A DNA stretch of 64,000 bases from Lachnospiraceae bacterium MD308. Its GTDB lineage: Bacteria; Bacillota; Clostridia; Lachnospirales; Lachnospiraceae. The stretch spans positions 20,583 to 84,582 of the forward strand of contig VIQU02000019.1 of assembly GCA_010206225.2 (NCBI GenBank). The letters run 5' to 3'. Both the position numbers and the translations under genes were made by a program. Of this stretch, positions 58,507 to 61,049 are shown piece after piece; position 1 is the stretch's first letter; every line of letters starts with the position of its first letter. Below the pieces are notes generated by a model that saw only the letters and a program-made list of their open reading frames with translations, had not been told where the DNA came from and made no database searches.

Positions 58507-59187
58507 ATGAGATATCAGATACAGGGAGAGACTCTTCCGGTAGTGATTTGTGAGCTTGAGGCAGGAGAGAAGATGATTACAGAAGGCGGCGCTATGTCCT
58601 GGATGTCGCCGAACATGAAGATGGAGACAACGAGTAACGGTGGAATCGGGAAGGCGCTTGGAAGAGCATTTTCAGGAGAAAAGATGTTCCAGAATATCTA
58701 TACTGCGCAGGGCGGTCCGGGAATGATCGCATTCGCATCCAGCTTTCCGGGATCCATCCGGGCATTTGAGATCACACCGGGACAGGAGATGATCTTTCAA
58801 AAAAGCGCTTATCTTGCCGGTGAGGAGAGCGTGCAGTTATCCGTACATTTCCGTAAGAAATTAGGTTCGGGCCTGTTCGGAGGCGAGGGCTTTATCATGC
58901 AGAAGGTAAGCGGAAGCGGGATTGTGTTTGCGGAGTTTGACGGTCATGTGATCGAGTATGATCTTCAGCCGGGACAGCAGATCGTTATCGATACAGGGCA
59001 TCTCGCGGCGATGAGTTCGACCTGTAATATGGACATCCAGAAAGTGCCGGGTGTGAAGAATATGGTATTTGGAGGCGAGGGACTTTTCAATACTGTCATA
59101 ACAGGACCGGGAAAAGTATGGCTGCAGACGATGCCCATCAGCAATGTGGCAGGAGCCATCAGGCCTTATATACCGACAGGAAATTAA
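58507..59187 (+). CDS. AIM24/TIGR00266-type protein
   Basis: GEKMITEGGAMSWMSPNMKMETTSNGGIGKALGRAFSGEKMFQNIYTAQGGPGMIAFASSFPG. Confidence 0.85.
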   Translation: MRYQIQGETLPVVICELEAGEKMITEGGAMSWMSPNMKMETTSNGGIGKALGRAFSGEKMFQNIYTAQGGPGMIAFASSFPGSIRAFEITPGQEMIFQKSAYLAGEESVQLSVHFRKKLGSGLFGGEGFIMQKVSGSGIVFAEFDGHVIEYDLQPGQQIVIDTGHLAAMSSTCNMDIQKVPGVKNMVFGGEGLFNTVITGPGKVWLQTMPISNVAGAIRPYIPTGN

Positions 59188-59190
59188 GGG

Positions 59191-59372
59191 TTGCAAGCTG
59201 AGTTGCTTTGCATTATAATAGATTCAGATTAAAGCAGAGAGAGGTGAAAGGATGAGGAGATAATTCGCTTTTGAAAACATGAGACTTTATGATTTATATC
59301 ATCCGGCATTTCCGGGAGATATTTGTTTTATGTTGCCAAAAGTGGATTATGTTCTCATAACCTCTCTTTTTT
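59191..59372 (+). promoter_or_regulatory. Putative attenuator leader of ABC-F gene
   Basis: TTGCAA (59191-59196) - 17 bp - TATAAT (59214-59219); SD agagaggt (59238-59245) + uORF ATGAGGAGATAA (59252-59263, MRR*); hairpin ttatg-ttct-cataa within 59341-59363, then T6 (59367-59372). Confidence 0.6.
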
Positions 59373-59462
59373 GGTGGAAAAAAATAATAATTTGTTTTAT
59401 CAGTTACGTGGGGTTAAGAGTGCAGGGATTCCTTTGGCAATAGCAGGGAGGAGGAATTTTAG

Positions 59463-61049
59463 ATGGCACAGATCAATGTAAGCAGCCTCACGTTTTGTTA
59501 TGAGGGAAGCTATGACAACATTTTTGAAAACGTATCTTTTACCATAGATACGGACTGGAAGCTTGGATTTATTGGGAGAAACGGGAAGGGAAAGACGACT
59601 TTTCTGAATCTTTTGCTCGGGAAATATGAGTATATTGGCTCTATCACTTCTAACACGGTATTTGATTATTTTCCCTATCAGATAAAGGAAGAATTCAAAG
59701 AAAAGCCGGCCGCCGATTTTGTAGAAGAACTGAAGGATGACTGTGAGCTGTGGCGCGTGATATGTGAGCTCAATAAGATGGATATGGATGCACAAGCGTT
59801 ATACCGTCCCTTTTCTACTTTAAGCTTCGGAGAACAGACGAAGCTTCTGCTTGCAGTGCTGTTTTCAGGGGAAAACAATTTTCTGCTGATCGATGAACCG
59901 ACCAACCATCTGGACAGTAGGGCAAGAGAGACGGTAAAAGAGTATCTGAAAAAAAAGAAAGGGTTTATTCTGGTTTCTCACGACAGAGATTTTCTGGATG
60001 CGTGCGTGAACCATGTATTAGTGCTTAACCGGCATTCTATTGAAGTACAGGCGGGAAATTTTTCGAGCTGGCGGGAGAATAAGAGACGTCAGGATGCCTG
60101 TATGCAGATGGAGAATGAAAAGCACAAAAAGGAGATAGGAAGGCTTAAGGAAGCAGCAAGACAGACAAGACAGTGGGCAGATAAAAATGAAAGCACAAAG
60201 ATAGGATTTGATCCGGCAAAGGAACCGGACCGCTGCAAAGCCACGAGAGCGTATATCGGGGCAAAGACTAAGAAGATGTTAAGCCGGGCAGGTCAGACAG
60301 AGCGGAGGATTGAGCAGGAGATCAGGAAAAAAGAAGGACTGCTTCGGGATATTGAGGAACCGGCGAATTTAAAGATGATGCCTCTTGATCACCATAAGAG
60401 AACAGTTCTTGCGGCGGACAAGTATAGCTTGAAATATGGAGATGCTGAAAAGTATCTTTTTGAAAATATGTGCTTTGAGGTTAATCAGGGAGACAGGGCT
60501 TTCCTAAATGGCGCCAATGGCTGCGGGAAGTCCAGTCTGATAAAGGCTGTTCTTAGAAGAGTCATGGATGGCACAGACGGCACAGATAAGGCAGAAAAAA
60601 AGAGAAATGAGAGAAGAGCAGAAGAATCCGGGGAGTCTGAGGTTATAGAGGGCGGAAGGCTCTGGACAGCTTCGGGTTTGGCGGTCTCTTATATCAGTCA
60701 GGATACTTCTTTTCTGCGGGGCAGCGTCAAAGAATTCTGTAAGGAGCGTAACCTCGATGAAAGTCTGTTTTTGGCGATTCTGCGCCAGCTTGACATGGAG
60801 AGGGTACAGTTTGAAAAAAGAATGCAGGATTTTTCAGAAGGACAGAAGAAAAAAGTGCTGCTTGCTGCGAGCCTGCTTACTCCGGCACATTTATATATAT
60901 GGGACGAACCGCTGAATTATATCGATGTATTTTCCAGAATGCAGGTGGAGGAATTGCTTCTTACGCACCGGCCAACCATGCTTGTGGTAGACCACGACGT
61001 ACGATTCGTAAGAAAAATTGCAACAAAGCTGATTGATATCCCTTCCTGA
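59463..61049 (+). CDS. ABC-F family ATPase, Lsa-like (putative antibiotic resistance/ribosome protection)
   Basis: Two NBDs without TM; DTDWKLGFIGRNGKGKTTFLNLL, YRPFSTLSFGEQTKLLLAVLFSGENNFLLIDEPTNHLDSRARETVKEYLKKKKGFILVSHDRDFLD, closely resembling Lsa-type proteins. Confidence 0.88.
   Translation: MAQINVSSLTFCYEGSYDNIFENVSFTIDTDWKLGFIGRNGKGKTTFLNLLLGKYEYIGSITSNTVFDYFPYQIKEEFKEKPAADFVEELKDDCELWRVICELNKMDMDAQALYRPFSTLSFGEQTKLLLAVLFSGENNFLLIDEPTNHLDSRARETVKEYLKKKKGFILVSHDRDFLDACVNHVLVLNRHSIEVQAGNFSSWRENKRRQDACMQMENEKHKKEIGRLKEAARQTRQWADKNESTKIGFDPAKEPDRCKATRAYIGAKTKKMLSRAGQTERRIEQEIRKKEGLLRDIEEPANLKMMPLDHHKRTVLAADKYSLKYGDAEKYLFENMCFEVNQGDRAFLNGANGCGKSSLIKAVLRRVMDGTDGTDKAEKKRNERRAEESGESEVIEGGRLWTASGLAVSYISQDTSFLRGSVKEFCKERNLDESLFLAILRQLDMERVQFEKRMQDFSEGQKKKVLLAASLLTPAHLYIWDEPLNYIDVFSRMQVEELLLTHRPTMLVVDHDVRFVRKIATKLIDIPS

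Follow-up and report, generated by a model that had tools for sequence, protein, structure and literature searches.

The DNA analysed here originates from Lachnospiraceae bacterium MD308 (GTDB lineage Bacteria; Bacillota; Clostridia; Lachnospirales; Lachnospiraceae), assembly GCA_010206225.2, contig VIQU02000019.1, positions 20,583-84,582 of the forward strand. This whole stretch of 64,000 nt is referred to as the window, and all coordinates given below are positions in it. The features described lie on the plus strand and comprise the leader 59220-59462 with its promoter, and the gene that follows. The latter (59463-61049) codes for an Lsa-like ABC-F ribosomal protection protein of 528 aa, assigned by NCBIfam and structure matches; it is taken as the regulated gene. 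Its product exceeds the cut-off of NF000355 (NCBIfam ribosomal protection ABC-F), and its best score to the Lsa profile NF000167, 620.7 bits, stays under the curated cut-off of 750 bits, which makes it Lsa-like, not a filed Lsa member; the nearest solved structure is Lsa(A) 7nhk. Judged from the matches to NF000355 and the Lsa profile, the leader appears to belong to an ABC-F gene of the antibiotic-resistance type.

The leader is preceded by a sigma-70 promoter, TTGCAA-17-TATAAT, at 59191-59219, just as the first-pass annotation had described it. A promoter at the same place with a match of at least 9/12 was found in 83% of 42 homologous leaders, compared with 10% in shuffles. An AIM24-family gene located upstream ends 4 bp before the -35 box (59187-59191), leaving hardly any space between that gene and the leader promoter.

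Downstream of the promoter a strong Shine-Dalgarno (SD) sequence, agagaggt (59238-59245), is followed by a three-codon upstream open reading frame (uORF), ATG AGG AGA TAA (Met-Arg-Arg, 59252-59263); both had been pointed out earlier and both are in place. The SD is conserved column by column in the leader alignment. Among the leaders at least 300 nt long (n=91), an SD with an ORF of 3-5 codons is present in 55, while dinucleotide shuffles gave 5.1 with a maximum of 13. In 53 uORF leaders, chosen by eye from the leader list, the encoded peptides are MRR (17, one of them, with a TGA stop in L070, being doubtful), MRK (9), MRI (6), MKR (3) and other three-codon forms, together with ten four-codon MxxR uORFs and one MSSTR. 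As uORFs of three, four and five codons all occur in frame, changes in length preserve the frame. MRR*, MRK*, MRI* and MKR* uORFs with a strong SD and an anti-SD 3' arm are kept across many Lachnospiraceae genera, and so the short uORF and the segment complementary to its SD are conserved in related leaders, on which the first-pass annotation had staked its reading. The R/K-x-R/K macrolide arrest motif (RLR or +x+) is absent from MRR* and present in some relatives (MKIR, MKNR, MRIR). A different leader class was seen before more distant Lsa-like genes (L028, L029, L034-L040, L096, L101), with uORFs of 5-7 codons mostly ending in Ser-Cys (MYNFSC, MKMFSC, MSSISC, MKTTSC), in which the TTCTTGC end lies opposite a GCAAGAA further downstream.

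A second frame (MRLYDLYHPAFPGD...) was also suggested earlier to start at 59279. It does exist as an open frame, running 54 codons to a TAG at 59443, and in three relatives of the same genus no stop interrupts it across the 3' arm, which would favour it as the sensor in place of MRR*. There is, however, no SD within its reach, and it is not a conserved ORF: it is frameshifted in the closest relative (L012, ABC-F 91% identical), meets a stop after 4 codons in L014 and is absent from most of the other genera examined. We therefore rejected it as the sensor, a role that we regard as very improbable for this frame.

The SD and the MRR* uORF are buried in the 5' arm of a single hairpin of about 40 bp (hairpin 1, 59236-59369), supported by folding and alignment. 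Its base is formed by agagaggt paired with the anti-SD segment acctctct (59360-59367), whose exact complementarity to the uORF SD had been noticed before. The region 59226-59377 folds at -60.1 kcal/mol (z -8.1), and none of 200 shuffles folded as well. In an alignment of 36 Lachnospiraceae leaders of Lsa-like ABC-F genes, the 40 pairs of the hairpin are kept in 92.4% of the cells, compared with 47-60% when the partner is slid, and the same hairpin is recovered independently by RNAalifold. Sixteen pairs are altered on both sides, compared with 6.7 in shuffles; the shuffle control ignores relatedness and overstates significance, and more weight therefore falls on the slid control and on the diversity of the sequences. 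Directly 3' of hairpin 1 lies a run of six T residues (59367-59372), and in nearly all leaders a T-run is kept right after the CTCTC base. The ABC-F ATG (59463) follows 90 nt further on. Earlier, the T6 run had been joined to a 7-bp hairpin ggattatg/cataacc; the T6 run holds, and the terminator-like structure is instead the long hairpin 1. The small hairpin was rejected as a terminator, since it enters the minimum-energy fold only when the long one is blocked by a ribosome on the uORF. Hairpin 1 with its T-run is a probable intrinsic terminator according to these predictions, although it is long, carries interior loops and does not resemble the textbook short terminator.

A terminator at this position might simply serve the upstream AIM24-family gene and have no regulatory role, given the T-run and the fact that hairpin 1 starts 49 bp past the stop codon of that gene. 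Against this, gene and hairpin are separated by a promoter whose spacing is kept in 83% of relatives, the element tracks the ABC-F gene, and the uORF, the alternative pairing described below and the SD are conserved, all of which leave such a role highly unlikely.

Besides its 5' arm, the 3' arm of hairpin 1 has alternative partners further downstream. The segment TGTTGCCAAAAG (59331-59342) can pair with 59433-59440, as indicated by co-variation and folding; here TTTGGCAA (59433-59440), assigned by co-variation, faces TTGCCAAA (59333-59340). In addition, leader comparison and folding identify GGGGTTA (59410-59416) as the alternative partner of ATAACCTC (59357-59364), and in many relatives the form facing ATAACCTC is GAGGTTAT. 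The ABC-F gene has its own SD, GGGAGGAGG (59446-59454, from sequence and folding), and in the predicted hairpin 2 (59425-59458) the segment GATTCCTTT (59427-59435) masks this SD region, GGAGGAATT (59450-59458); TTTGGCAA lies within the 5' arm and loop of hairpin 2. In nearly all leaders TTTGGCAGCA or a variant of it is present 3' of the T-run, complementary to TGTTGCCAAAA in the 3' arm of hairpin 1. The pairing TTGCCAAA:TTTGGCAA is stronger within a leader's own sequence than between leaders (permutation p 0.0004); the partner is often changed along with an altered 3' arm, and compensating changes on the two sides were found in four leaders (L025, L048, L056, L059). In a few leaders the downstream partner is not clear, as in L032, or is weak, as in L063. 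Prediction and co-variation together point to RNA conformations that exclude each other, one of which terminates transcription or masks the SD. They also support, at the level of modelling, a second control stage missed by the first-pass annotation, namely masking of the ABC-F SD relieved by TTGCCAAA:TTTGGCAA.

The second hairpin is not of one kind. In one set of leaders from other genera it is a terminator (GGAACTGTTTGGCAGCAAATGGTTC-TTTTTT), and the hairpin of the window and its relatives covers the ABC-F SD, the window's own copy having no T-run; in two leaders (L013, L063) features of terminator and SD mask are united. On a tree of 30 ABC-F proteins, with types labelled by eye and five rows left unlabelled, the proteins with SD-masking leaders fall together in one group (support 89/87, recovered in 91% of bootstrap trees), and none of 500 label shuffles was as clustered. 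As this type forms one group, the output stage probably changed once, as far as the protein sequences indicate.

Alternatively, hairpin 1 could act as an anti-antiterminator or decoy next to a non-terminating T-run, with control exerted solely at translation through hairpin 2. The length and interruptions of hairpin 1 would agree with this, as would the retention of the SD-masking hairpin 2 in the clade of the window and the finding that cplR stays repressed through SD masking even with a mutated poly-U (PMC10201436). Nevertheless, almost every leader retains the T-run next to the CTCTC base, those of the clade in which hairpin 2 is not a terminator included, and we consider purely translational attenuation unlikely, though worth bearing in mind.

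The effect of a ribosome on the uORF, a folding check proposed earlier, was modelled by keeping positions -15 to +16 relative to the uORF start unpaired, with a block of the apical loop as control. With the uORF blocked, hairpin 1 dropped to 0 in almost every leader, and the apical-loop block in the window had no effect. At the same time the alternative pairing in the window rose from 0 to 0.45-0.58. At equilibrium the opening of the ABC-F SD increased modestly, from 0.37 to 0.51 (from 0.57 to 0.72 for a shorter SD stretch), and in the relatives with a second terminator the second stem fell on average only from 0.97 to 0.71. Such a weak loss of the second stem and modest opening of the SD mean that an equilibrium model is insufficient and that folding order or kinetics must matter.

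The conserved elements observed, the co-variation of the alternative pairings and the response of the fold to the modelled ribosome lead us to regard the leader 59220-59462 as very probably an attenuator that senses ribosomes and controls the ABC-F gene in two stages. The first-pass annotation had read it as a ribosome-mediated attenuator, and the conservation of the uORF and the anti-SD arm supports this. When no drug is present, ribosomes would finish MRR* at once and depart, the leader would zip into hairpin 1, transcription would end near 59372 owing to this hairpin and its T-run, and any read-through transcripts would keep the ABC-F SD masked by hairpin 2. A drug acting on the peptidyl transferase (lincosamide, streptogramin A or pleuromutilin) would stall the ribosome on the uORF, covering the 5' arm, so that hairpin 1 could not form and transcription would go on. 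In the freed 3' arm, TTGCCAAA and ATAACCTC would then pair with the downstream TTTGGCAA and GGGGTTA, pulling hairpin 2 apart and setting the ABC-F SD free. That the uORF is translated, that transcription stops at T6, and that drugs stall the ribosome and induce the gene is argued by analogy with vmlR, cplR and the ARE5 toeprints.

Ribosomes are halted at start codons, largely irrespective of context, by lincosamides, streptogramin A and pleuromutilins (LSAP drugs), and Lsa-type proteins protect against the same three drug groups; for both reasons these drugs are the likely inducers. Macrolides seem less likely, because MRR* offers no room for the R/K-x-R/K arrest motif. It might also be that the leader senses another block of early translation, such as amino-acid or initiation stress, and not drugs specifically. 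Codons 2 and 3 of the uORF are variable, so no strict peptide motif is read, and general defects in translation likewise induce vmlR (PMC9226507). The controlled genes, in turn, are Lsa-like and other ABC-F ribosome-protection genes, which fits drug sensing, and we find a non-drug signal improbable.

Attenuators of the vmlR/cplR kind are already known for antibiotic-resistance ABC-F genes, and three-codon uORFs are the proven sensors in both: the uORFs MIN of vmlR and MRI of cplR are stalled by drug and required for induction, and uORF mutations abolish it (PMC9226507, PMC10201436). The vmlR leader of Bacillus subtilis shares with ours a three-codon uORF with a strong SD inside a 5' hairpin, attenuation of both transcription and translation, and an ABC-F of the LSAP type (PMC9226507); its uORF MIN has the variants MDN, MDK and MRK. 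In vmlR, however, the uORF hairpin, pause hairpin, terminator and SD-masking hairpin are four separate stem-loops, while the window, compared by description, has a uORF hairpin that runs straight into the T-run and one further hairpin downstream. The uORF MR[I/M] of cplR from Clostridioides difficile is nearly identical to MRR, MRI also occurring among the Lachnospiraceae leaders, and there too a 5' hairpin conceals the uORF and a downstream hairpin masks the ABC-F SD, the two levels working together (PMC10201436). Its single terminator, though, is the downstream SD-masking hairpin, whereas the window has its T-run on the uORF hairpin and none on the hairpin that masks the SD; the ABC-F is also of another subfamily. 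The lsaA leader (uORF MAGN) precedes an ABC-F of the same subfamily and has a short uORF of different sequence, the comparison covering subfamily and uORF (PMC10201436). At the start codons of ARE5 uORFs, including are5sc (MLV) and tiaA, LSAP drugs stall ribosomes by toeprint, but these are Streptomyces-type genes with other uORFs and structures (PMC12421871). The search of Rfam gave no match in the window at the gathering threshold, only sub-threshold chance matches, and in the open-licence literature we found neither a paper joining uORF, Lachnospiraceae and ABC-F nor a title describing this leader. New here are the union of uORF and probable terminator in one hairpin, a second stage that can be exchanged, and the reuse of the element before other genes.

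The ABC-F has homologues in 44 of 98 relatives and in 100 of 397 family members, whose leaders were taken from the homologue loci and by region; a scan of genome contigs yielded one close relative only, the same MAG as in the genome search. With a covariance model built from hairpin 1, matches were obtained in 55 of 397 Lachnospiraceae genomes and, in an order-wide sample, in 18 of 392 genomes, all of them Lachnospiraceae; a class-wide sample gave only three Lachnospiraceae members and one noise match. Minus-strand matches were treated as echoes of the near-palindrome, and those near 30 bits as noise unless supported by context; one of the latter (L195), which has no ATG and faces a convergent gene, was rejected. 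The genome of the window has one copy of the element, and no mobile copies were found in the plasmids, phages and viral contigs searched. A 71-nt look-alike, ATGAGGATATAA...TTATATCCTCAT followed by T7, was noticed before a TetR-like gene (L136 158-228, L138 2123-2193), with no strong SD and a weak score of 31 bits.

Strong matches (at least 79 bits) also precede genes of other types: an ABC-F of a second class (L133), a GNAT gene (L115 867-1630), a P-loop kinase-GNAT fusion (L125 1501-2991), a truncated ABC-F followed by kinase/GNAT sequence (L109 996-1630) and, after a 12-codon ABC-F remnant, a MATE gene (L122 1-1636). Three further loci of the second ABC-F class (L134, L135, L137) gave weaker matches of 30-42 bits with fitting context and uORFs. 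Proteins of this class, in all four loci, are about 22-25% identical to that of the window, and their uORFs are MSR*, MRK*, MRNR* and MRR*. A metallophosphatase at L114 was not counted as a target, as it starts about 340 nt past the element, and the frame directly after the element is a 72-codon fragment. In three genomes (G037:C12:68121-68882; G273:C12:4837-5610; G156:C60:12511-13281) the gene immediately after the ABC-F, in the same orientation, codes for a P-loop kinase (NCBIfam NF005250, PRK06761), and in a fourth (G330:C35:12339-13124) the kinase follows a second-class ABC-F; located behind an attenuated ABC-F, it is a candidate resistance partner. Since the kinase directly follows the ABC-F in several genomes, the L125 and L109 arrangements may be deletion products of such ABC-F-kinase operons. 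Among 30 kinase/GNAT homologue loci the element was found only at L125's own locus, in flanks that were limited and did not always reach past a whole upstream ABC-F, so the link between kinase/GNAT and the element is at least occasional.

It is conceivable, and we put this forward tentatively, that we are dealing with a portable drug-sensing cassette, a Lachnospiraceae RNA family not described before and made of promoter, uORF and long hairpin, joined to an exchangeable output (a second terminator or an SD mask) and either placed or left behind before several gene types: two ABC-F classes, a GNAT acetyltransferase, a P-loop kinase-GNAT fusion and a MATE exporter. If so, presence of the element would mark candidate resistance genes of unknown function, and, should the switch work as inferred, the covariance model could flag unknown genes under drug control. 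The leader family would then offer a natural series in which a single sensor controls a terminator in some members and an SD mask in others. Among the anaerobes of the gut, Lachnospiraceae are a major group, and they are exposed to clindamycin. If the switch operates as proposed, many of them would hold inducible, normally silent ribosome protection, which standard gene counts would misread.
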